Positions 28,006 to 62,389 of a stretch of 64,000 nt of DNA are shown here, piece by piece. The position numbers and the translations under genes are program-made. The DNA comes from Cinnamomum chago. Lineage: Eukaryota > Streptophyta > Magnoliopsida > Laurales > Lauraceae. The notes under the pieces were generated by a model, which made no database searches, had not been told where the DNA came from, and saw nothing but the letters and a program-made list of their open reading frames with translations. Positions within the stretch are counted from its first letter, which is position 1, and each line of letters begins with the position of its first letter. The stretch is taken from assembly GCA_038049695.1 (NCBI GenBank), contig CP142452.1, positions 50,426,501-50,490,500 on the forward strand. Reading direction: 5' to 3'.

Positions 28006-29190
28006 TGTTAGGTCTTTTGTTTTTGCAATTTGATGGATGCATTTGCACTTTAGCATCATTTGGATTCACACACTAGCATTGTTTTAGAAAACCTTGAAAT
28101 CTAGTTTTATACATGCATAGCTTTTAAGATTTGGAAAAGTCTTTGCTTTATGCATGTTTTGGTTTTAAAGTTGGATGCATTGGTTTTGAAACCCAAACTC
28201 TTTTTGAAAACCTATTTCCTTGTGCACTACATTTGGAAAATCATGTTAGGTATTTAGGTTTGAGGTTTGCATACTTTCAGCACCTTTAGAATCAGTTTTG
28301 TATGCAATTTCATTTGAAAAGAGTTTTTCTCAAATCAAGCTAGCCTATGGTTTTAAAGTTTTCAAATTTGTTTAGGCTTCTTATAATCATGTTTTATTAA
28401 CCTTTAGAATCTCTAAAACATGTATTTAAGCTTGATTTAATGGCCCAAAAGGTCCCCCATAGATATACCTTCAAATAGGCAAAAATTGAGTTTTTGCAAA
28501 ATGGGGTGTCTCGGCAGTGTCGCCGGTCGACCGAGACCTGTGTCCCGGTCGACCGGGAACACTGTCGGGCAAGTGGAAAGTTTCTGTGCAGAAATTTTCC
28601 AACGGTCAGAAATATGACCGTTGTGTTGTCCCGGTCGACCGAGACACCTCTAGGTCGACCGAGACAACTAGCCGTTGGACTGTTTTTTGCCTATAAAGTC
28701 CATTCATTTCCAACTTCTAAAAAGTGGAACAAATGAGCCTTTGAGAGCATTTTGGAGCCAAACAAAGGGGAAGAAGTTGGAAAGGCTAGGAGGTCATTAG
28801 GAGAGCTAAAGCTTGGATTAATGAGTTAAACCACCGGTTATTGCTTAGCCTAGAAAAGCACATTGTAAGGTTGTTGTTGAGCCTAGAAAAACAACATTGT
28901 ATAGGTTATTGCTTAGCCTTTGAAAAAGCATACATAGTGGAAATCCGGTGGGGTGATTGGATTCACAAGCCGGTAGTGGATGTAGGCATTGAGGCCGAAC
29001 CACTATAAACATTGGTGTTGTGGTGCATGCTATGTGGTGATTGTATTTGTATTAGCTTCCGCATTTTGTTTGTTAATCATCACATGTGACTAGTTTATGC
29101 TAAGAAGTTAAAATTGGTCATAATTAGTCATAGTTGTAGCTCACCCTATTCACCCCCCCCCCCTAGGGTTAGGATCCTCGTGGACTTTCA
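28006..29190 (+). mobile_element. J: short solo LTR of the G/L family, 1.2 kb
   Basis: It begins TGTTAGGTCTTTTGTTTTTG and ends near GGATCCTCGTGGACTTTCA, with a perfect duplication GGGGT (28001-28005 and 29191-29195). It matches G and the L LTRs at both ends but lacks their central 1.04-kb stem-loop module: the sequence passes from GTTAAACCACC directly to GGTTATTGCTTAGCC. A palindrome cluster (28522-28675) precedes a TATA box (CTATAAAG, 28691-28698). A 32-37 bp repeat with TTATTGCTTAGCCT lies at about 28846-28940. A C tract lies near 29150-29163. Confidence 0.92.
28522..28675. repeat. Palindrome cluster, core GGTCGACC, upstream of the J TATA box
   Basis: Four copies of CGGTCGACCG or one-base variants plus an inverted pair AACGGTCA / TGACCGTT. 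The same cluster lies in G (40598-40742) and in the L LTRs (43574-43711 and 48666-48805), each time just upstream of the TATA box. Confidence 0.9.
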
Positions 29191-32552: not shown

Positions 32553-33670
32553 AAGTTTCAGGCCATTCCGACATCATTTGGCCTAGCTTCACTTCTCCAA
32601 CAGCTAAGCAGCAGCTACCAGCGGCGACAGTGTCGAAGACCCCAAATCTTCGATCAGAGCCTACGGATGGTCTCAAAATACCTCCGAAAGGCTACATGTC
32701 AAGTTTCAAGTCAAGCCGACACCGTTTGACCCGCCATCAACTCTCGAGCAGCAAAATCAAGCCCTTAGGTAGCGAGAACTACCGAGGTCATCACTCATCA
32801 AACAGAGCACATGGGCGGCTCCTACATACCTCCAAAGGGCTGCACAACAAATTTCAGGTCATTCCGATGACGTTTGACCCAATTTCGATGCTCGGAAACA
32901 AAATCAAGCCTACTGGTGGCGGAGCACCCCGGGACCATGGCACTCAATTCGGAGCTTGTGGATCATCTCAAAATGACTCCAGTAGGCTCCCCATCGAATT
33001 TCAGGTCAATCGGACATCGTTTGACCAGAAGTCAAAGCTTGGCATTTCCCTCGCGGTGAAATAAAGGCAAGCGTTTGCATGACTCCAAATGGCTTCAAAA
33101 CTCAAACGAAAGCCTATGGTTGTTCTTATCTACTGATGGGGGAGTCACACGTCGAATTTCAGGTCAATCAGACATCGTTTGACCAGAAGTCAAAGCTCGG
33201 CATTTTCCTCGCGGTGAAATAAAGGCAAGCATTTGCATGACTCCAAATGGCTTCAAAACTCAAACGAAAGCCTATGGTTGGTCCTATCTATTGATGAGGA
33301 AGCTACCCATCAAATTTCAGGTCAATCGGACATCGTTTGACCAGAAGTCAAAGCTCGGCATTTCCCTAGCGGTGAAATAAAGGCAAGCGTTCCCATGACT
33401 CCAAATGGCTTCAAAACTCAAATGAAAGCCTATGGTTGGTCCTATCTACTGATGAGGAAGCTACCCATCAAATTTCAGGTCAATCGGACATCGTTTGACC
33501 GAAAGTCAAAGCTCGACATTTCCCTCGCAGTGAAATCAAAGTCAAGCATTTGCGGGACCCAAAACGGCTTCAAAACCTGAACAAAAGCCTATGGTTGGTC
33601 TCGTCTACTGCTCAAGAAGCTACACGTCGAATTTCAGGTCATTCCGACATCGTTTGACCTAGTTTCGACG
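32553..33670. repeat. 146-159 bp tandem array in LTR I, eight units
   Basis: The anchor AATTTCAGGTCAATCGGACA or a variant recurs at 32553, 32701, 32851, 32997, 33155, 33313, 33471 and 33630. Spacings are 148, 150, 146, 158, 158, 158 and 159 bases. The last four units are much more alike than the first four, which suggests recent local amplification. Confidence 0.9.
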
Positions 33671-40204: not shown

Positions 40205-40597
40205 TGTTAGGAATTTTGTAGATTGCAATTTGATGGATGCATAATCATTCTAGCATCATTTGATTCACACACATATGCATTGTTTTAGATAAACTTGAAA
40301 TCTTGTTTTATTCATGCATTGCTTTTAAGATTTGTAAAAGTATTGATTTATGCATGATTTGTATTTTCATCTTGGATGCATTTGTTTTATAAAAGAGTTT
40401 TCAAGAAATCAAGCAAGCCTTTGTTTTAAAAGTTTTGAATCTTTTTAGGCTTTTAATGTTCATGTTTTAAAAACCATTAGAATCTTTAAAACATGTTTTT
40501 CAAGCTTGATTTAGTGGCCAAAAGGTCCCCCAAAGAAATACCTTCAAAATATGCAAAGTTGGAATTTTTGCAAAAAGGGGGGTGTCCCGGCAGTGTC

Positions 40598-40774
40598 GCC
40601 GGTCGACCGAGACCTGTGTCCCGGTCGACCGGGAACACTGTCGGGCGAGTCATCAGTTTCTGAGCTGAAACTTGCCAACGGTCAAAAATATGACCGTTAT
40701 GCCTTCCCGGTCGACCGAGACCTGTGTCTAGGTCGACCGAGGACTAGCCGTTGGCAACTTTTTGCTATAAAAAT
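40598..40774 (+). promoter_or_regulatory. GGTCGACC cluster and TATA box of LTR G
   Basis: Four CGGTCGACCG-like words (40598-40742) and the pair AACGGTCA / TGACCGTT lie directly upstream of CTATAAAAAT (40765-40774). The arrangement looks like a promoter-proximal element with repeated binding sites. Confidence 0.65.
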
Positions 40775-40999
40775 GAGTTCTTTCCTTTGCCAAAAGTTGG
40801 GAATTTTTAGCCCCTCCTTGAGAGGATTTGAGGCATATCAAAAGGGAAAAGAACCAAGGGATGAAGGGGATGATTAGGAAAGCTAAAGCTTGGATTAATG
40901 AAGTTAAACCACCAAGTAGGCTCTTCCTTCCTTAATCATATGTTTTCATGCTTTTGTTTTATTTTTGGTAAATCATTTCTAGCATGTTAAACTATGTTT

Positions 41000-41873
41000 G
41001 TGTTGTGTCCTTAACATGTGTTATGTTTTGAGTTGATTTATTGTTTTGGATACAACACCATATGATTCAATCCAAGTAGTACTTAACTTTGGTAAATCTA
41101 AGTAGATCATGTTAATGAAAGAACCTTTGAAATTATATGTAACATGATTCATATACTTGGTTGAATCTTTGGTTGTTGTTTTCCATCATAAGAAAATCAC
41201 TTTCAAAACTATCTTATGTTTTGGATTCAACTTCTTTACAAATCATATGTTTTCATGTTTTGTTTTATCATTAGTAAACCTTTAGTAACAAGTTAATCTA
41301 TGATTTGTTGTATCCTTAGCATGTTCTATATTTTGAATAGATCTATTGTTTTGGATACATCACCATTGATTCATCAAAGTAGTACTTTATCTTTGGTAAA
41401 TCTAAGTAGATCATGTTAATGAAATATGTAACATGATTCATATACTTTGTTGAATCTTTGGTTGTTGTTTTCCATCATAAGAAAATCTCTTTCAAATGTA
41501 TCTTATGTTTTGGATTCAACATCATTACAAATCATATGTGTATTATTGTTTTAAAGTTTCACAACTTGCTTTACTTTGATAGGAAAATCATTTTCAAGTT
41601 GTATTTATAATTACATATGATTTGTCCCCATAACATCAATCAAATCTATTATTATGTTTTGAGCTTCATTGATGATTTGATTGACATCCCTATGCATCAC
41701 ATGTTTAGAGCTAATCCATTTCATACAACTTGTGTAACTTTGATATCATTAACAAGTTGTTACTTTTAACATGTGATTGCATTGTTTCCTCAATCATAAA
41801 TGTTTTATGAGCCAAAACTTTCAAAAGCCTTAGGCATACTTTTATGAGCTTTCATTTTCAAAATGATTGAGGA
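41000..41873. repeat. Stem-loop module in LTR G
   Basis: Successive inverted repeats: 41000-41010 with 41048-41058; 41187-41193 with 41212-41218; 41527-41540 with 41613-41625 enclosing 41561-41568 with 41595-41602; 41638-41646 with 41674-41682; 41692-41705 with 41768-41782 enclosing 41725-41733 with 41752-41760; 41787-41797 with 41863-41873. Arms are 7-14 bases and mostly perfect. Several loops contain TTATGTTTTGAG or TTATTGTTTT. Part of the module is a 320-bp tandem duplication (about 40920-41560). Confidence 0.8.
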
Positions 41874-41887
41874 CCACACACACACAC

Positions 41888-44094
41888 TGTAAATCCATGG
41901 GGATCCGAACCCTAGAGGGGGGGTGAATAGGGTGAGCTCCAATTATGACCAATTTTAACAATTTTAACTTCTTTAAAACAAACTAGTCACATGTGATGAT
42001 TAATCATACAAGATGCGGAAGCTAACAAAAGAATCACCACAAAGCAATCACCATCACACAAGTATTTATAGTGGTTCGGCCTCAATGCCTACATCCACTA
42101 CCGGCTTGTGAACCAACACCCCACCGGATTTCCACTATTTATGCTTTTCAATAGGCTAAGCAATAACCTTTACAATATGCTTTCCAAGGCTAAGCAATAA
42201 CCTTACAATGATGTTTTTCAAGGCTTAACATCAACCTATACATTATGCTTTTATAGGCTAAGCAATAACCTCTTCAACCATAGGTTGGTTATCTCACTAA
42301 ATTAGTGTCTAACATACACTTGATGGAGATTCTATTAAGCTCATTACAATGCCTCTTAAATAGGCGGATATGGAAGTGAAAAACTAATACACACTCACAC
42401 TATGAATGCAAAGATGAAAGTATATGAAGTGTGTGTGTGTGGTCCTCAATCATTTTGAAAATGAAAGCTCATAAATGTATGCCAAGGCTTTTGAAAATTT
42501 TAGCTCATAAAACATTTATGATTGAGGATATAATGCAATCACATGTTAAAAGTAACAACTTGTTAATGATATCAAAGTTACACAAGTTGTATGAAATGGA
42601 TTAGCTCTAAACATGTGATGCATAGGGATGTCAGTCAAATCATCAATGAAGCTCAAAACATAAAAATAGATTTGATTGAAAAGAGGGGACAAATCATATG
42701 TAATTATAAGGACAACTTGAAAATAATTTACCAATCAAAATAAGGCAAGTTGTGAAGCATTAAAACAATAATACACATATGATTTGTAATGATGTTGGAT
42801 CCAAAACATAAGATACATTTGAGAGAGATTTTCTTATGATGGAAAAACAACAACCAAAGATTCAACAAAGTATATGAATCATGTTACATATTTCATTAAC
42901 ATGATCTACTTAGATTTACCAAAGATAAAGTACTACTTTGATGAATCAATGGTGATGTATCCAAAACAATAGATCTATTCAAAATATAACACATGCTAAG
43001 GATACAACAAATCATAGATTAACATGTTACAAAGATTTACCAATGATAAAACAAAACATGAAAACATATTATTTGTAAAGAAGTTGAGTCCAAAACATAA
43101 GATACTTTTGAAAGTGATTTTCTTATGATGGAAAACAACAACCAAAGATTCAACCAAGTATATGGATCATGTTACATATGATTTCAAAGGTTTTTACATT
43201 AACATGATCTACTTAGATTTACCAAAGTTAAGTACTACTTGAATTGAATCATATGGTGTTGTATCCAAAACAATAAATCAACTCAAAACATAACACATGT
43301 TAAGGACACAACACAAACATAGTTTATCATGCTAGAAATGATTTACCAAAAATGAAACAAAGCATGAAAACATATGATTAAGAAAGGAAGAGCCTACTTG
43401 GTGGTTTAACTTCATTAATCCAAGCTTTAGCTTTCCTAATCTTCCCCTTCATCCCTTGGTTCTTTTCCCTTTTGATATGCCTCAAATCCTCTCAAGGAGG
43501 GGTTAAAAATTCCCAACTTTTGGCAAGGGAAAGAACTCATTTTATAGCCAAAAAGTTGCCAACGGCTAGTTCTCGGTCGACCGGCAAAGGGGTCTCGGTC
43601 GACCGGGAAGGCACAACGGTCAGATTTCTGACCGTTGGAGGTTTCAGTGCAAAAATGCAGATTTTACCTCCAGTTGTCTCGGTCGACCGAGACCTGTGTC
43701 TCGGTCGACCGGCGACACTGCCGGGACTCCCCCCTTTTTGCAAAAAATGCAACTTTTGCATATTTGAAGGTTTTTCTTTGGGGGACCTTTTGGCCACTAA
43801 ATCAAGCTTGAAAAACTTGTTTTAAAGATTCTAATGGTTTTTAAAACATGACATAAAAAGCCTAAAAAGATTCAAAACTTTTAAAACAAAGGCTTGCTTG
43901 ATTTCTTGAAAACTCTTTCTTAAAACAAATGCATCCAAGATTAAAAAGACAAATCATGCATAAATCAATATCTTAAAAACAATGCATGAAGAAAACAAGA
44001 TTTCAAGTTTATAAAACCAATGCATAAGTGTGTGAAACAAATGATGCTAGAATGAAATGCATCCATCAAATTGCAATCTAGAAAATTCCTAACA
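41888..44094 (-). repeat. L 3' LTR (left copy)
   Basis: Ends are TGTAAATCCATGGGGATCC and GAAAATTCCTAACA. A reverse TATA box is at 43539-43547, the GGTCGACC cluster at 43574-43711, and the stem-loop module at about 42425-43400. ORFs common to both L LTRs (such as 43472-43825 and 48565-48918) are LTR sequence, not genes. Confidence 0.95.
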
Positions 44095-44847
44095 ATCTCC
44101 CCCTTTGCAATTTGATGGCAAACACACTCACCACTGAACAAGCACACTTAGTCTTCAGCTCCCCCTCAGCTGGACAAGGCTTGAAATCTTCTTGGATGCT
44201 TCTTCTCATAGCTTGGGCTCTTGGGCTTCAATCTTCATTCTTCATGATGCTTGGTGCTTAAATATTCTTTAAGCTTTCTTTCTTCTTTCTTTCTTTATCC
44301 AAGCATCTTCTTTAGCTCCAAGCTTTGTTTCTTCTATTTGCTCTCCCTCTTTGACCATGCCTCTTTCTCCCTTTGGCAAGGTATGTATTCTCTCCCCTTG
44401 TAGAAGATCATACACAACTCTCCCTTTAGGAAGCTTGGACATTCTCTTTACCCTTTTGAGAACTTGCATAATTTCTCCCCCTTTGCCATTAAATTGCAAA
44501 GGTACCTACACACATGAAACAAGGAAAATACCTTTAGAAGCACCTGTTAACAAATGAAATCGAAAATGAAATGCGTAACAGGCTATCATGTATGGAAGTT
44601 ATCTCTGAGGGCTCAAAGGCTATCCAAGGGTCAATTTGATCAAAACTAATACTTCCTATGAAGGTTTACACTCCCCCTCAATCCATTCTCTCCTTTTGTC
44701 AAACTTTTGACAAAGATTTAACTATTAGGTGCAAGAAGAAGATGGTTTAACCAAATGAGGGTCAACTTCAAGGAAAGGATTAGATTCATTTAACTATAAA
44801 GCTCATATGATCAAATTACCAAAAGAGAGCTAGGTCTAATGGGAAAA
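44095..44847. other. 3' end of L: repeated polypurine-like tracts
   Basis: On the minus strand GGGGGAG tracts occur at about 44099-44105, 44158-44166, 44473-44481 and 44671-44677. The first abuts the 3' LTR and should be the working polypurine tract. The longest, AAAGGGGGAGA, occurs twice. The rest is T/C-rich on the plus strand with no convincing coding frame. Confidence 0.6.
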
Positions 44848-46598
44848 GCAATCATGGATATCAATTGGACAAACAAAGAATACCAATTGAGATTTAGGAT
44901 AAGTCTATTAAAGCAATCACTCTAAAATGGATTTAAAAATATACCTATTAGGAAAAATCCAAATTAGAGCTATCCATGATGCAATGGGGTTTACTAATCA
45001 TAGCATTAAAAAATTTAACTATGGAAAGCATATGCTATGTAAGTTTTGAAATCATTTCATTCAATCAATAAATATGACTTATTAAAGTGCAAGATGAGTG
45101 AAATGAAATTCAAACATGAAGCCAACCTCAACTAATAACCAACCAATATTATGAACACATAAACATGGTGGTCATGAGATATACCTATATGAGCAAAGGA
45201 GGTGGCAACATGAACATTATGATGCTAATGGTGTGTGACATGGAACAATCATATTACTTATCAAGTTCAATCCAATGCACACAAGATTTATCACATTCAC
45301 AAGAAATCAAATCAATCAAACATTATACCAATAGAATCCAATTGAATTTGATAACATGATAAAGAGCAAGAATGTGACAAAATTCCATCAAGCATCATAA
45401 ATGCATATTCATCACTTTTGAAGATATAACTATTGAGCATAGTGATGAACAAGATAAATTGCAATGCAAAAGGATATAACTTTGAAATGCATGCAATTTA
45501 AAAAGTGACTAAATCATATGAATTCAACTTCTAAGTTATCCATCAAACACATAGAAATATGAGGAATGGATTTCAAAGAGTTTCATATGATTAAGAACAC
45601 TGCTATGAAGTTGAAACATGTATAAAGATGATATCACTTAGAGAAAATACATGAATCAACATCAAAACCATCCAAAAAAAAAATAACTAGAAAGCATAGA
45701 GGATGGATTTTAGTTCTAGTATGGTTTCTACAAAAGTAATAAATAACACAACCATACATAGAACGATTTGACATTTGCATAGAGAGGATTAATCAACATT
45801 CAAGATCTAACTCATACCAAACATCAAAAAGGAATATAACTATTTAAGCACAAGAAGGTATGAAGTTAAAGGAATCAATCTATCATGTAACATCTCCACT
45901 CTTAGCAAATGTACTAAGCTTACAATGCAATGGAAAAGGATATGAGGTTTAAACCAAATGAACTTAGCACATAAAATCACATATGTACTTAAAAAGCTCA
46001 AATACAAGATTTTACTATAAAGCACATAAACACTCATTAATTTGCATTAATGAAACTATATACCAAAACAGGCACAAACATGCAAATCAATGAAATCATA
46101 TCTAACCAAGCAAAGTAAGATAACAAACTCAATTTGCATAAAGAATGTAACTCAATGAGCAAAGATGCAAATTGTTTGTAAAAATTATTTCCTTTCAAAT
46201 GATACAATCATAGTTAGGCACAAGGAAATAAATTCAAGGAAAATGCTTCTATAAATATAACTTATAAAGCTTAGAACATTTTCCAAAGTTGCAATCAAAG
46301 GATTTTGAAAACCATGAGATATAACTATAAAAGTTCATGAAGACAAAATCAAATGATCACAAAGAAACATTGCATTTTAAAAGATGTGACTTTAAAGAAA
46401 CAAAATGCAAATGTAACATGACCAACAAAAAGATATAACTAAAAAGCATAGGTTGGTCTAGGGGTATCAAGGCCTAAGGTTACTCAAATAGTCTACCTTT
46501 GAAAATTCACCTAAGGTCTTGAAAAGGTTGTCCATGAGAGAACATTTTGAGGACTCACCAACTCTTAAAGATATAACTTAGAAAAGTCTTAGAGTGGT
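44848..46598 (-). repeat. Array of stem-loops with a shared loop motif in L
   Basis: At least sixteen consecutive inverted repeats have different stems of 8-24 bases. Clear pairs are 44920-44934/44955-44969, 45045-45063/45095-45114, 45248-45271/45341-45360, 45408-45416/45441-45449, 45456-45468/45488-45499, 45664-45673/45701-45711, 45808-45818/45857-45868, 46034-46047/46080-46093, 46122-46139/46165-46179, 46183-46194/46222-46234, 46238-46250/46273-46284, 46301-46317/46335-46350, 46367-46378/46402-46414 and 46469-46480/46509-46520. Most loops are 17-38 bases and many contain a version of AGATATAACTATWAAGCAT (plus strand). No known feature type explains it; a structured RNA domain is the simplest reading. 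Confidence 0.85.
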
Positions 46599-46733
46599 GC
46601 AATGAGGCTAGGGAAAAATTCATTTTCAATCATAGTGGAAATCTTTAAAAAGATATGCAATGAATCACAACACTAGGGTTCTAATCTAGCAAGGATCAAC
46701 TCCGGGTTGTTAAGCCCTAAAATGGAGTAACCC

Positions 46734-46747
46734 GCTCTGATACCACT
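46734..46747 (-). other. Second primer-binding site inside L
   Basis: AGTGGTATCAGAGC on the minus strand is identical to the site at 46968-46981 and directly follows the 220-bp mini-LTR. Confidence 0.85.
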
Positions 46748-46967
46748 TGATGAGGGGTCTGAATTTCTTCAAAACCCTTAAGGACCCACATCCTCTTAAC
46801 ACGGATCACCAAATGGTACCTATCAGAGTCCAGACACATGGAGCACGATAGTCCCCCCCCACATGCCTGCCACGAACGGAGAGTCTCTATTTATCCGCTA
46901 TTTCAAGCGAGAGTTTCCGTGGATGCGAGTGATCACGACTCACAAGGAGTTTTTCCGAGGCTCTACA
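46748..46967 (-). mobile_element. 220-bp TRIM-like mini-LTR inside L
   Basis: On the minus strand it begins TGTAGAGCCTCGG and ends GACCCCTCATCA, with TG...CA ends. It contains a TATA-like GGATAAATAGAGAC near 46890 and is followed at once by a methionine primer site. It is unlike the 2.2-kb LTR of L. The arrangement LTR, primer site, mini-LTR, primer site looks like a chimera formed by template switching at the primer site. Confidence 0.75.
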
Positions 46968-46981
46968 GCTCTGATACCACT
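46968..46981 (-). other. Primer-binding site of L
   Basis: AGTGGTATCAGAGC on the minus strand abuts the 5' LTR (46982-49187) and fits methionine tRNA. Confidence 0.9.
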
Positions 46982-49187
46982 TGTAAATCCATGGGGATCC
47001 GAACCCTAGAGGGGGGTGAATAGGGTGAGCTCCAATTATGACCAATTTTAACAATTTTAACTTCTTTAAAACAAACTAGTCACATGTGATGATTAATCAT
47101 ACAAGATGCGGAAGCTAACAAAAGAATCACCACAAAGCAATCACCATCACACAAGTATTTATAGTGGTTCGGCCTCAATGCCTACATCCACTACCGGCTT
47201 GTGAACCAACACCCCACCGGATTTCCACTATTTATGCTTTTCAATAGGCTAAGCAATAACCTTTACAATATGCTTTCCAAGGCTAAGCAATAACCTTACA
47301 ATGATGTTTTTCAAGGCTTAACATCAACCTATACATTATGCTTTTATAGGCTAAGCAATAACCTCTTCAACCATAGGTTGGTTATCTCACTAAATTAGTG
47401 TCTAACATACACTTGATGGAGATTCTATTAAGCTCATTACAATGCCTCTTAAATAGGCGGATATGGAAGTGAAAAACTAATACACACTCACACTATGAAT
47501 GCAAAGATGAAAGTATATGAAGTGTGTGTGTGTGGTCCTCAATCATTTTGAAAATGAAAGCTCATAAATGTATGCCAAGGCTTTTGAAAATTTTAGCTCA
47601 TAAAACATTTATGATTGAGGATATAATGCAATCACATGTTAAAAGTAACAACTTGTTAATGATATCAAAGTTACACAAGTTGTATGAAATGGATTAGCTC
47701 TAAACATGTGATGCATAGGGATGTCAGTCAAATCATCAATGAAGCTCAAAACATAAAAATAGATTTGATTGAAAAGAGGGGACAAATCATATGTAATTAT
47801 AAGGACAACTTGAAAATGATTTACCAATCAAAATAAGGCAAGTTGTGAAGCATTAAAACAATAATACACATATGATTTGTAATGATGTTGGATCCAAAAC
47901 ATAAGATACATTTGAGAGAGATTTTCTTATGATGGAAAAACAACAACCAAAGATTCAACAAAGTATATGAATCATGTTACATATTTCATTAACATGATCT
48001 ACTTAGATTTACCAAAGATAAAGTACTACTTTGATGAATCAATGGTGATGTATCCAAAACAATAGATCTATTCAAAATATAACACATGCTAAGGATACAA
48101 CAAATCATAGATTAACATGTTACAAAGATTTACCAATGATAAAACAAAACATGAAAACATATGATTTGTAAAGAAGTTGAGTCCAAAACATAAGATACTT
48201 TTGAAAGTGATTTTCTTATGATGGAAAACAACAACCAAAGATTCAACCAAGTATATGGATCATGTTACATATGATTTCAAAGGTTTTTACATTAACATGA
48301 TCTACTTAGATTTACCAAAGTTAAGTACTACTTGAATTGAATCATATGGTGTTGTATCCAAAACAATAAATCAACTCAAAACATAACGCATGTTAAGGAC
48401 ACAACACAAACATAGTTTATCATGCTAGAAATGATTTACCAAAAATAAAACAAAGCATGAAAACATATGATTAAGAAAGGAAGAGCCTACTTGGTGGTTT
48501 AACTTCATTAATCCAAGCTTTAGCTTTCCTAATCTTCCCCTTCATCCCTTGGTTCTTTTCCCTTTTGATATGCCTCAAATCCTCTCAAGGAGGGGTTAAA
48601 AATTCCCAACTTTTGGCAAGGGAAAGAACTCATTTTATAGCCAAAAAGTTGCCAACGGCTAGTTCTCGGTCGACCGGCAAAGGGGTCTCGGTCGACCGGG
48701 AAGGCACAACGGTCAGATTTCTGACCGTTGGAGGTTTCAGTGCAAAAATGCAGATTTTACCTCCAGTTGTCTCGGTCGACCGAGACCTGTGTCTCGGTCG
48801 ACCGGCGACACTGCCGGGACTCCCCCCTTTTTGCAAAAAATGCAACTTTTGCATATTTGAAGGTTTTTCTTTGGGGGACCTTTTGGCCACTAAATCAAAC
48901 TTGAAAAACATGTTTTAAAGATTCTAATGGTTTTTAAAACATGACATAAAAAGCCTAAAAAGATTCAAAACTTTTAAAACAAAGGCTTGCTTGATTTCTT
49001 GAAAACTCTTTCTTAAAACAAATGCATCCAAGATTAAAAAGACAAATCATGCATAAATCAATATCTTAAAAACAATGCATGAAGAAAACAAGATTTCAAG
49101 TTTATAAAACCAATGCATAAGTGTGTGAAACAAATGATGCTAGAATGAAATGCATCCATCAAATTGCAATCTAGAAAATTCCTAACA
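46982..49187 (-). repeat. L 5' LTR (right copy)
   Basis: Nearly identical to 41888-44094; I counted six substitutions and one base of length difference. It carries a reverse TATA box near 48632-48640 and the GGTCGACC cluster at 48666-48805. Confidence 0.95.
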
Positions 49188-49742
49188 CACACTTCATATA
49201 CTTTCATCTTTGCATTCATAGTGTGAGTGTGTATTAGTTTTTCACTTCCATATCCGCCTATTTAAGAGGCAATGTAATGAGCTTAATAGAATCTCCATCA
49301 AGTGTATGATAGACACTAAATTAGTGAGATAACCAACCTTGTGGTTGAAGAGGTTATTGCTTAGCCTATAAAAGCATAATGTATAGGTTGATGTTAAGCC
49401 TTGAAAAAACATCATTGTAAAGGTTATTGCTTAGCCTTGAAAAGCATATTGTAAAGGTTATTGCTTAGCCTATTGAAAAGCATAAATAGTGGAAATCCGG
49501 TGGGCTGTTGGATCACAAGCCGGTAGTGGATGTAGGCATTGAGGCCGAACCACTATAAATACTTGTGTGATGGTGCTTGCTTTGTGGTGATTGTTTTCTT
49601 TAAGCTTCCGCATTTTGTTTGATAATCATCACTTGTGACTAGTTTGTTTTAAAGAAGTTAAAATTGTTAAAATTGGTCACAAAAGGAGCTCACCCTATTC
49701 ACCCCCCCTCTAGGGTTCGGATCCCCATGGACCAACACATGA

Positions 49743-56862: not shown

Positions 56863-57480
56863 CACTACAACAAAACACAGTTTTGCCAACGTAGTCATTG
56901 CGTCTGGAAAGGTGGATTTTGCGTCGGCAAAAGATGTCCCAATGCATTTCAGCGCGTCGGCAATCACGTGTAGCCAAATCCATAGCCGACGATATTTTAA
57001 CTACGTCGGCATATCCCTGTACAATTGCCAACGCACTGCAGCGTCGGCCAATACGTCGGCAAAGAGATGTGCGTCGGCAAAAGGTCCAACTTTTCTGATT
57101 CGAAAACTATATTTGCCAACGCTGGTAGTGCATTGGGAGTTCCTAGTAATTGTCGACGTTGGCAGCGCGTTGGGAATTCATAGTAATAGCCAACGCTTGT
57201 AGTGTGTTGGGAATTCGTGGTAATGGCAGACGATGATTAAGCATTGGGAATTCATGAAATAGCCGACGCTATCAATGCGTTGGGAATGCATGAAATAGCC
57301 GACGCTACCATTGCGTTGGGAATATATGAAATAGCCGACGCTACCAATGCGTTGGGAATGCGCTATATCTTTAGGCTAACACGTTGGGAAATGCAACTTC
57401 GCCGATGCGCAAAGCACGTCGGGAAATGTTGTAATAAATTTTCTTTTTTGCAACGCACGCTGGTGCGTTGGGAAAGATTA
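56863..57480. repeat. CACTA subterminal repeats
   Basis: GCGTCGGCAA and its inverse TTGCCAACGC fill the first 250 bases. From about 57120 to 57370 a 36-37 bp tandem repeat follows (AGCCGACGCTACCAATGCG, then TTGGGAATGCATGAAAT). Such motifs bind the element's own transposase in known CACTA systems. Confidence 0.85.
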
Positions 57481-58324: not shown

Positions 58325-61300
58325 TGTGAGAACCCGACCCCTAATCTCTTGGATTAGTGTTGTTTTATTTGTGGATTAGTTTCTTTTAGTGGGATTAGTA
58401 TTTGTTGGGTTGAGTTTGTGAGCTAGAATGGTTTTTCTTCTAGTTTTGGGCTTTTGAGTGCTTTGCTAGCTTGTGGGGCCCTTTGGGGGTTCCCTTTTCG
58501 GCTTTGCATTTACTTGTGAGATTTTCCCGATTTGTTTCGTATTGTGTTTTTGGCCCGTTGCATTCATCTTGAGGAATCCTACAACTTTCATGTTGATCCC
58601 GTATCCATTTGAGAACCCGAAACCCGATTTCTTGGCCTTGAGGGCAAAACAGTCATTTCACACCAAATCTGTACCCAAATCTCGATATTCTCGAAATCCG
58701 TGAAACATATACTTTTTGGAAACTAGAAATTTCGACGATCATTTCTTCCTTCTTCGTCGAATTCATCCGAGGTCCCGAAAGAGATGATTTCAGCCACCCA
58801 AGTTCTTTAAGTTGTGGGACCCAAACCTCACTTGCTTATAAGAGGAACCCATCTCCTTCATTCATTTCACTCTTCCTTTTCCAGCACAAACCAGCAACCT
58901 AGGGTTTCTCTTGTGTTCCTCTTCTTCTTCTTGCTTCTTCATCTCCAAGCCACACCAAGAGTTCATCAATCAAGAAATGGAGATCACCAACCTCTTCCTC
59001 ATCTTGCAAGCTTTCCATTGATACCATTTGTGAAGAGAACCCTCCATCACAAGACTTCCTTTGAGCTTACCTTGTCCATTAGAGGACCTTGCAAGTAAGT
59101 GTTCTTCTTCATCTTCTAGATTTGTAATCTTCTAGCCTTAGAGAAGCTCCACCTTGATTATTGAAAGGTTTCCTTGTCATTTCATTGCTTAACCCATTTT
59201 AGGGTTTGTTTTGGGGGTTTTTGTAGAGATTGTGGATCTTGAGCTTGAGAGGTGATTAGGAGCTTGATTTGCTTGATTAGAGTCAAAGGCAAGTGGATGA
59301 TTGGATCGTTTTGATTATTAACATGTTTTGTGAGAAAAATCTTTTTTCATTAAGGGTTTTGGTGATTTTAGTAGTTGTCTTTACTATGATTAATATTGAT
59401 TTCGAAATGTGCTTATTGATGAGTTTATTCCCTCTTGTTCATGCTTGGAAAATATATGCATCATATTGGCAAGGTTTCAAATGGTTTCACATGAATGAGT
59501 TTTCTCCACCTTGAGATTTGTTGTGAATGGAAAGAATAGAAAGGGAGAAACTTGAAATGAGGAGCTCTTTAGCTCATATTATTGTCTTGGAAACATGTAT
59601 TTTAGTCTTCTTGTTTATAGTTCTATGTGATTGTTTAAGTGTTGGAAAGGAAAGGAAAAAGGAAAGGAAAAAGGAAAGGAAAAAGGAAGGAAAAATCAGT
59701 GTCCCGGACCTGCTGCACGCCCAGGTCCGATCGATCGGACCTACAGGCCGATCGATCGGTCTGTCTTTAACTGTAAGGCTTTTTGAGCCGATCGATCGGA
59801 CTCTATGCATAACTGGTACAGAAATTTCGGTGAGATTTGATATTGTTTTTTTTTAAACCTTTGGGCTTTCTATGAGTCCTAGGGGTATATACCTTAGTGT
59901 TAAGACCAATTATACCCTAATCTAAGGTCTCTAAGACTAGGGAACTAAAAGAAAGAATGGTGATGATCTAGGCACTAATTCTCGGTTTTAGGTGGGACCC
60001 TGGCTACCCTCTTTGGACTGTTTGGACCATGTGTGAGAATGTCTTGAGCCGACACGCCACACGGTTGGCTCGGTGGCATCGGAGTTCAATCCATTTCAAT
60101 CTTGAACGGGATGGAACGACGCGATATCTTCTTTATATCTAAACACAAGTCTTTCCCTTGGTTATCGCGAATTCTATTCCTTTCGGTGATTGAATAGGTT
60201 GCTCGATGTTTCCGGATTAATGTCATGCCTAGGATGGACCGTTTATGATCTTGATTCTTTTCTATGGTAACATCTATTACTACCCATAAGCTCATTTTAA
60301 GTTTGGAAAACCGAAAAGTGCATAAGGAGCCCGGAATGTCTTCAAACTCAAGGAGTACCAAGTAATTATTATAATCGACATACGGGACCCCTATTCACTT
60401 AAATAGATCTTGAAATTAATACTTTTACCCGAAATGGTTATAGTTCATTGTTTCACCTCATTTCCCGAGATTTGCATCACATGACTTGTTTTCCCGAAAG
60501 CATTGAAGTTACTCTGGTAACAGTTATTGTCCCGAAGTGCATTGCACCACATGATATGTCAGTGTGCCCTTGAGCACCCCCGTCTTGCCCGTTTGATTAT
60601 GTATTTGTACTTGGTTTACTTGCATTTGTCTCGATTGTATTTGACCTATGAGTCGGCACCACTAAGCTTAGATAACCCTGTTGGTCTGATCCACCGACTT
60701 GGAGATCCCCCTCTTGTCCCGCCAGCTGCAGCTTGGATCCCGCTACCCGGTTATTACCGTGGTCTTGTCCCGATACCGCAGATTGCTATTGTGGTCCCCG
60801 ATGCCCGGCTCGCTACCGTGGTCATGTATAGTATATGTATATGCATTCATGAGATCCACTGTTTCTCCTCACCTCGAGTAACTGAGATCAGTGCCTAGTA
60901 TATGTATATGTATTTATATGAGATCCCCTGTTTCTCCTCGCCTCGAGTGACTGAGATCAGGGCCTAGTTATTGCTCTATCGCTTTAGTGATAGAGGACTT
61001 AGCTTCGTGTGGTTGCCATCTTGCTAGTTCCTGATTCCTTGGATACCCGACATGTTTTATATTGCTTATTTGTTTTCCGTTAAATGATTCATTTCTTTTA
61101 TAAAAGTTATTGTTATATTATTTCTCGTTCTTAGTACACACCCATGCTTTTACATATATTTCAAACGAACAATGGTTTTGCTAGAATTCTATGATTACAC
61201 ACGTTTTAAATGAATGCCCGAATTGTTAAATATCCATGCTTTGAAATATGTTTTAAATGACACTTGTTTTGCCAGATCCCTATGTTTATACCTGTTTTAA

Positions 61301-62389
61301 ATGAATACCCGAATTGTTAAATATCCATGCTTTGAAATATGTTTTAAATGACACGTGTTTTGTCAGATTCCTATGTTTATACCTGTTTTAAATGATTACC
61401 TGAGTTATTTAATATCCATGCCTTGAAATATGTTTAAATGAACATTAGTCTTGTCAGATTTCTTTGGTTACACCTGTTTTAAATGAACACCCGGTTTGTT
61501 AAATATCCGTATTTTTACATATGTTTCAAATGGACATTGGTTTTGCTAGACTGCTACGAATACATGGTTTGTTGTATACTTATGTTTTTACCTAACTCTC
61601 AAATGAACGTTTGTTTTGTCAAACCACTATATTTATACATGTTTTAGACGAACACCCGATTGTCAAATATCTATGATTATAGATGATGTAAATGAACACA
61701 TGTTTTATTAGATATTCATGTTTTACCCATACTTGAAACGAATACATGGTTTGCCCGAGATCCATGATTTTGCACCCGTTTAATTATATGCAGCATTTGA
61801 TCGATTAGCATGATTTATCATATGTTTTATTCTTTAGTATATTTGTGATCTTTTCATCCACCTGCCAGACCGTCGTGTCTGACCCACTACTTTTAGTACT
61901 CAGGTTCAGATTTCTTCGTCCCGAGATGAGTGCTTGGGTTGGCTGTGGAGCCATGTTTTGCAGGTTGTTTTGTCAGCTATGTCATGTAGACATTGGGCTT
62001 GACATCAGAGCTACGTCATAAATGGGGTAGTGATTATAGCTTATTGTTGTATGGCTTTTATTAGCCTTTTTCTTGGGATTCTTAATTAATGTACATTGAT
62101 AATTGTAACTTGAACATATTTGGGAATGTAATATCCTGTTACTGTCAGCTCTGTAATTTATTGTGATGGTTACTCCAGTCTGATATGATTCTTGATATAA
62201 TAGCTATGTGCTAAAGGTTGAGTGCGACGCGGAATCCGATGGCCACGGACTTCGGGTCGCAACGCCACAAATGCTTCCGCAAAATATTTAGAATATGTTG
62301 TCTTCACACACGCGGATCCTGGGAGAAGTAAAATACATTTATGCTTAATCCCATTCCCGCCCCCGAGGTTCCGGTTCGGGGGCGTGACA
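58325..62389 (+). mobile_element. B: solo LTR, same family as A, 4.1 kb
   Basis: It runs from TGTGAGAACCCGACCCC to GGTTCGGGGGCGTGACA with a perfect duplication ACGTG (58320-58324 and 62390-62394). In order: a TATA box CTTATAAGAG (about 58835), a T/C-rich leader with CTAGGGTTT, a donor-like GCAAGTAAGTG near 59091, a GGAAAGGAAAAA repeat (about 59645-59695), three CCGATCGATCGG palindromes (59727-59803), 30-bp repeats (60737-60826), a 57-bp duplication (about 60859-60967) and the 80-95 bp repeats (61090-61760). No coding content. Confidence 0.94.
59727..59803. repeat. Palindrome cluster, core CGATCGATCG, in LTR B
   Basis: Three CCGATCGATCGG copies sit within 77 bases, versus six in A. The sequence between copies is only partly conserved. 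Confidence 0.9.

Follow-up and report, generated by a model that had tools for sequence, protein, structure and literature searches.

An array of unlike hairpins with a common loop core in a protein-less LTR element of Cinnamomum chago

Results

A young LTR element without long reading frames

The window, a 64-kb stretch of Cinnamomum chago DNA, holds an LTR element (L) at 41888-49187 on the minus strand, with CACAC on both sides (41883-41887 and 49188-49192). L is young, its LTRs being 99.7% identical. In the sense of the element, its main features are:

46982..49187, minus strand: 5′ LTR, from the LTR match (99.68% identity to the other LTR)
48667..48804, minus strand: four CGGTCGACCG palindromes in the 5′ LTR, from sequence; four more lie in the 3′ LTR
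46968..46979, minus strand: primer-site-like TGGTATCAGAGC after the 5′ LTR, from sequence
44848..46598, minus strand: hairpin array, from folding, stem counts, motif counts and copy comparisons
44097..44678, minus strand: four AGGGGGAG tracts (44678-44671, 44482-44475, 44166-44159 and 44104-44097), from sequence
41888..44094, minus strand: 3′ LTR, from the LTR match

No open reading frame of at least 100 aa lies in the internal region, which rules out the array as coding sequence. Two 117-aa frames within the LTRs are on the plus strand, antisense to L. A second copy of TGGTATCAGAGC is present at 46734-46745, and between the two primer-site copies lies a block of ~234 bases (46746-46979). Among the loci compared, this block is confined to L itself and a pair on C3, L016 and L017 (99.6%); the internal regions of two other copies, L011 and L013, begin at the second primer site.

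L is itself inserted in a solo LTR of its own family, on the opposite strand and ~95% identical (40205-41887 plus 49188-49737). CATGA borders this host LTR on both sides. An older solo LTR of the family, ~78-81% identical, lies at 28006-29190 with GGGGT on either side. Elsewhere in the window, Tandem Repeats Finder reports repeats at 32992-33659, 57115-57359 and 61142-61550, with periods of 158, 36 and 91 bp.

Sirevirus hallmarks in the non-coding parts of L

We compared L with the Sirevirus hallmarks given in the available text of Bousios et al. 2010 (PMC2829016), namely a tract cluster, an AT/TG end, a junction inverted repeat, palindromes and poly-C. As in Sireviruses, the AGGGGGAG tracts are clustered before the 3′ LTR, with none elsewhere in L. 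The last tract is followed by AT and then by the TG of the LTR (junction AGGGGGAGATTG), and an inverted repeat, with CCATCAAATTGCAA before the junction and TTGCAATTTGATGG inside the LTR, encloses it; both are Sirevirus traits. So is poly-C near the LTR 3′ end, found here as a six-C run at 47016, ~30 bases before the end. CGG-CCG palindromic LTR repeats, which that text reports in 13 of 21 Sireviruses, are present as CGGTCGACCG, four times per LTR, and in the 5′ LTR CTATAAAA lies downstream of them, starting at 48640. The same text describes Sirevirus palindromic motifs as repeated in both LTR and linker. Where Sireviruses are expected to have at least eight in linker plus 3′ LTR, L has four exact copies of CGGTCGACCG in the 3′ LTR and none in the linker, variants being uncounted.

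The exact 23-base tract/LTR junction of L occurs 5504 times in the genome (reversed control, 0), a count of junctions of any element having the 23-mer rather than of arrays. Because L has no pol, and with it no RT or RNase H of the Sirevirus clade, we class it as a Sirevirus derivative and not as a full Sirevirus. The best explanation of its non-coding hallmarks is that L is a non-autonomous derivative of a Sirevirus (Ty1/copia), which would depend on the proteins of other elements to move.

A hairpin array beyond chance

The array lies in the linker of L, between the polypurine-tract cluster and the point where gag ends in sister copies, and consists of ~17-25 hairpins in one orientation. A preliminary description of this DNA had proposed an inverted-repeat array of ~1.75 kb beyond chance, and had named comparison with dinucleotide shuffles as a check. 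The array is real. Local folding of 44848-46598 (span at most 150, 40 dinucleotide shuffles) was far better than that of shuffled sequence on both strands, with z = -10.9 on the plus strand and -9.7 on the minus strand; the same test on two other internal pieces of L, four strand tests in all, gave z from +0.6 to -1.5. Ungapped Watson-Crick stems with a score of at least 8 numbered 25, compared to 12.9 ± 2.6 in 30 shuffles (maximum 18). Together, the folding and stem counts rule out chance in AT-rich DNA as the source of the stems. A simple tandem repeat is also ruled out, as Tandem Repeats Finder reports nothing in 44848-46598. Loose 21-bp stems, counted as possible small-RNA hairpins without a shuffled control, numbered 42 in the 3′ LTR and 34 in the array, compared to 2 and 6 in the other internal pieces. 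The individual hairpins are:

46420..46458, minus strand: hairpin with loop TAGTTATATCTT, 0 mismatches (fold, motif scan)
46289..46362, minus strand: hairpin with an inner stem, arms 46289-46307 with 46344-46362 (fold)
46238..46284, minus strand: hairpin with loop AAGTTATATTTA (fold, motif scan)
46181..46235, minus strand: hairpin (fold, stem scan)
46123..46179, minus strand: hairpin holding 46130-46139 with 46165-46174 (fold, stem scan)
46033..46094, minus strand: hairpin (fold, stem scan)
45713..45764, minus strand: hairpin, arms nearly fixed and loop variable among copies (fold, copies)
45602..45668, minus strand: hairpin, arms nearly fixed and loop variable among copies (fold, copies)
45406..45451, minus strand: hairpin with loop TAGTTATATCTT, 0 mismatches (fold, motif scan)
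45043..45115, minus strand: hairpin, 45043-45063 with 45095-45115 (stem scan)
44920..44969, minus strand: hairpin (stem scan)

Three stems named in the preliminary description were all recovered. The pair 45045-45063/45095-45114 extends by one base or two at its outer ends (45043-45063 with 45095-45115), 46122-46139/46165-46179 is found as the shorter pairing inside the larger 46123-46179 stem, and 46301-46317/46335-46350 is the inner part of the 46289-46362 hairpin. The further claim that the stems are consecutive and all different needs qualifying in two respects: several stems have TTTGCAT in common (by eye), and some are nested or competing, so that the hairpins are not strictly consecutive. 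Counts of G-T against A-C pairs gave no sign of sense-RNA pairing and do not tell RNA and DNA apart.

A common loop core with three apparently slow adenines

The 19-base loop motif first described occurs at up to 3 mismatches in five places in the 64 kb (0.06 expected), every one of them on the plus strand and within the array; exact copies are found at seven places in the genome. A 12-base core (sense TAGTTATATCTT, at most 3 mismatches) gave 17 sense and 2 antisense hits in 44700-46620, compared to 5.5 ± 2.2 sense hits in 200 shuffles (maximum 13), which bears out a common loop motif. All but one of the 17 fall within 44848-46598. In three other copies, the sense and antisense counts were 20/2, 21/3 and 15/3. 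The core sits off-centre, within unlike stems. Stems around motif hits exceeded shuffles in all four copies, and exceeded other places in the array (p < 0.05) in only one of the four.

Slower change of the motif as a whole is ruled out, since its rates were close to those of other unpaired bases (0.151 vs 0.155, 0.069 vs 0.076 and 0.140 vs 0.149). In the far copies, core A positions 1, 5 and 7 changed at a rate of 0.072 where other unpaired A's changed at 0.174 (p = 0.0014); in the near copies the two rates were 0.037 and 0.111 (p = 0.005). These positions were picked after the rates of both sets were known, and the second set is thus no blind test. The three positions look constrained. If this is real, constraint would act on a short core together with the shape of the stem-loop, and not on the 19-mer. 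The loop-binding factor suggested in the preliminary description is supported in part, with the post-hoc adenines of two copy sets on its side and the rate of the whole motif against it.

Constraint on shape among copies

In all nine copies tested, relocating the differences of a copy to random places with the same base cost more folding energy than the real differences did; z ranged from -4.4 to -7.4, and none of the 60 controls per copy reached the real value. The nine came from the 16 other copies then aligned, and for five of them the test was confined to 44848-45781. The same procedure had no effect on a control segment outside the array, where 52 of 60 controls reached the real value. 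Shifting the pattern of differences, which keeps their clustering, also cost more structure in 11 of 11 copies (of 23 available; z -2.2 to -6.4), with 0 of 60 controls reaching the real value in ten copies and 1 of 60 in one.

Helices also changed more slowly than unpaired bases. With helices defined in one group of copies and differences counted only within the other, the helix/unpaired ratio of change rates was 0.27-0.52, compared to 0.83-1.0 for shifted labels, and p was 0.0005, the smallest value possible, in all 12 rows (four label sets by three variants).

Paired changes were counted on a tree of 31 copies with seven reference structures, in tests that share data. On internal branches, double changes that keep a pair numbered 9, 12, 8, 10, 7, 1 and 4 (null means 1.0, 1.2, 1.0, 1.1, 1.3, 0.2 and 0.5), above all 150 permutations for six of the seven structures. 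Pair-breaking single changes were below every permutation for five of the seven. Broken doubles numbered 4, 10, 5, 4, 4, 1 and 6 (null 1.3, 1.8, 1.3, 1.1, 0.7, 0.2 and 0.9); since they too are above the null in most tests, part of the paired excess is clustering. Earlier lineage-level counts of paired/broken doubles were 8/1 (L012), 7/3 (L051), 8/8 (L043) and 1/4 (the window's copy), so two of the four did not favour pairing. Our first pair counts, in which pair-keeping doubles exceeded the permutation mean, were discarded because the excess proved to be clustering once broken doubles were separated. At the level of single alignment cells, over all copies from L to the far group, doubles numbered 15 paired and 24 broken, against a null of 8.0 and 12.8: the same share, with pairing no more frequent than by chance.

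Within the sequence present in L, three pairs are cleanly compensated: 46218/46196, 46553/46531 and 46360/46291, the last of which the near group has as G-C and the far group as A-T. Most of the other such pairs sit in a ~367-nt block absent from L. Taken together, the comparisons support constraint on the array helices, which we attribute to probable selection on shape. The preliminary description had proposed such selection, and named as fatal to it a finding that arms change independently and lose pairing in other copies. In copies from the same genome the structure survived, on the evidence of relocated and shifted differences and the rate ratio and, more weakly, of lineage-level doubles.

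Structured LTRs

We ranked 51 windows across the 64 kb by folding energy over shuffled energy (1251-base windows, sense of L, 20 shuffles). LTR windows of L's family took places 1-3, the array was fourth and the older related LTR fifth. LTR helices changed more slowly than unpaired LTR bases in five of five comparisons (p < 0.05 in four). Structure is a property of the element's non-coding parts in general, and since it extends to the LTRs, no separate function of the array is required.

Sister copies encode a partial Gag

DNA searches with the arrays of L, L010 and L008 were scored for the best 40 of 6190, 6460 and 8802 candidates, respectively. The family occurs in head-to-tail LTR-internal series (L016-L042, for example G000:C7:33257856-33312904) of up to 12 units ~4.8 kb apart, and 33 of the 40 scored places from the search with L's array lie in such series.

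In the far group, open frames of 519 (L010) and 407 (L012) codons lie near the start of the internal region; that of L014 is broken. The L010 frame (L010:4845-6401, minus strand) is a partial Gag frame of ~520 aa, with no pol. It has a CCHC (zinc-knuckle) motif (zf-CCHC E = 0.01, 16.4 bits, below the curated cut-off of 20.8) and, by eye, a coiled-coil-like stretch. In these sister copies the array directly follows the partial gag, overlapping its last ~110 nt. A tblastn search did not find the frame in L, nor between the LTRs of L011 and L013.

The best 83 of 8571 candidate gag matches in the genome were 518-524 aa long, and 80 of the 83 contained no stop, in a ranking by score that favours intact frames. 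Every one of these 83 ends at 518-524 aa, and among them no autonomous partner was found. The best 150 of 16771 RVT_2 hits were not lineage-specific; when the nine scored hits in the first 43 Mb of C1 were compared by eye with 100 listed junctions, no hit had a same-strand junction within 10 kb. Among 8000 scored candidates from public proteins were two relatives of the partial Gag, of 521 aa (68% identity) and 504 aa (59%). Relatives of the public partial Gags were sought in viral contigs and none was confirmed.

The arrays of these copies also differ by whole blocks. A block of ~341-377 nt with further hairpins, placed at 46291 of L, is present in L043, L044, L011, L013 and the far group and absent from L, and the far group lacks about 355 nt corresponding to 45788-46142. 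L011 has an insert inside its array, at about 2585-2785, with inverted ends CACTACACCAAAAA...; we take it to resemble a small CACTA-type MITE.

Discussion

What the array does is judged here from sequence comparison. Our best explanation, held tentatively, is that the hairpins are multivalent packaging or dimerisation signals read by Gag. The element RNA would be transcribed, its hairpins would offer candidate recognition sites for Gag or a nucleocapsid-type protein, and binding would promote dimerisation, packaging or both. A copy that lacks gag and pol but retains the array might then still be mobile. The stems may differ between units since self-pairing is all that each hairpin requires, the protein reading shape and loop core. 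The partial Gag of array-bearing sisters, with its CCHC motif, adds circumstantial weight to the idea, raised in the preliminary description, that the array serves packaging or dimerisation or exploits the Gag of a partner. In favour of a Gag reader we count the folding excess, the single orientation, the constrained helices, the pair-keeping doubles on the tree, the slow core A's, the position of the array after gag, the mostly uninterrupted gag matches and the likeness in form to multiple packaging signals; against it, the lack of an RNA wobble sign, the null cell-level doubles, the high number of broken doubles, the mostly unconstrained motif, the structured LTRs and the helper that was not found.

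A more specific form of this explanation is a two-tier parasite, in which the knuckle-bearing Gag fragment of the sisters would bind the array of its own RNA, and stripped copies like L would keep only the array and ride along. We regard this as rather unlikely; if true, it would be a multivalent packaging system within a very abundant plant LTR family.

It is possible, if doubtful, that the array instead acts in cis, read by the host or at the DNA level, as an AT-rich equivalent of the Sirevirus LTR palindromes with a part in transcription control and/or a small-RNA response. The LTRs of L's family are more structured still and carry CGGTCGACCG palindromes, RNA wobble pairs show no sign, and Sirevirus palindromes are known from LTR and linker in the available text of PMC2829016. 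An excess of small RNAs over maize Sirevirus palindrome clusters is also mentioned in the part of PMC10760457 that cites Bousios 2016. However, the array has no CGGTCGACCG at all, and its loop motif is one-oriented with an off-centre core in unlike stems, neither of which palindromic binding sites need.

We consider it unlikely that the array is structural filler, in which selection maintains a compact or stable RNA in place of the lost pol and nothing reads the loops. Constrained stems, mostly unconstrained loop positions and likewise structured LTRs would fit such a role, but a one-oriented common loop motif and slow core A's would not. A mutational origin, in which tandem duplication of hairpins and template switching rewrote one arm from the other without selection, seems quite improbable: it would account for a loop common to units, stem letters common to several, groups differing by whole blocks of about 355-377 nt and paired double changes, but it predicts neither the two- to fourfold slower change of helices, so that the rate ratios weaken it, nor the slow core A's.

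Protein-less LTR elements keep spreading in plant genomes, at times outdoing their helpers, and how they do so is a standing question. In L's family the packaging-signal and loop-binding ideas are directly testable, as it offers a delimited RNA region whose constraint can be measured, numerous natural variants and, in the sisters, a candidate protein.

TR-GAG elements are LTR elements with an intact gag and no pol. The sisters L010 and L012, with LTRs and a gag-type frame without pol, resemble them, whereas L itself has lost the gag frame that L010 retains (519 codons), and falls outside the definition. To our knowledge, a hairpin array is no part of that definition. L also has LTRs, a primer site and a polypurine tract while lacking both gag and pol, as LARD and TRIM elements do. 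Their RNAs are described in the available text of PMC7215508 as well conserved in secondary structure, which L shares on the evidence of relocated and shifted differences and of helix rates, lineage-level support for pairing being moderate and the cell-level count negative. The head-to-tail LTR-internal series of L's family resemble the Cassandra arrays of that text, but the structures it describes include no hairpin array with a common loop core, and the sisters of L, unlike LARD/TRIM elements, encode a partial Gag. The multiple packaging signals of RNA viruses, as far as the sources consulted describe them, are also many stem-loops with a common loop recognition motif. This would be an analogy of form, the array belonging to a retroelement with only a candidate binding protein.

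Searches of open-licence PMC papers turned up no account of an element-internal hairpin array whose stems are unlike and whose loops have a common core. Closest are the Sirevirus palindromes (available text of PMC2829016), which share with the array a genus assigned by non-coding hallmarks and dense dyad-symmetric units in non-coding regions including the linker; the LTRs of L even carry the CGGTCGACCG listed there for a Vitis element. Those palindromes are near-identical GC units of about 10-20 bases, whereas the array of L has AT-rich, unlike stems and loops of about 20-35 bases with a common core. Thus, as far as these texts go, palindrome arrays in the Sirevirus LTR and linker and structured LARD/TRIM RNAs are already known, and what the array adds is unlike stems with a common loop core.
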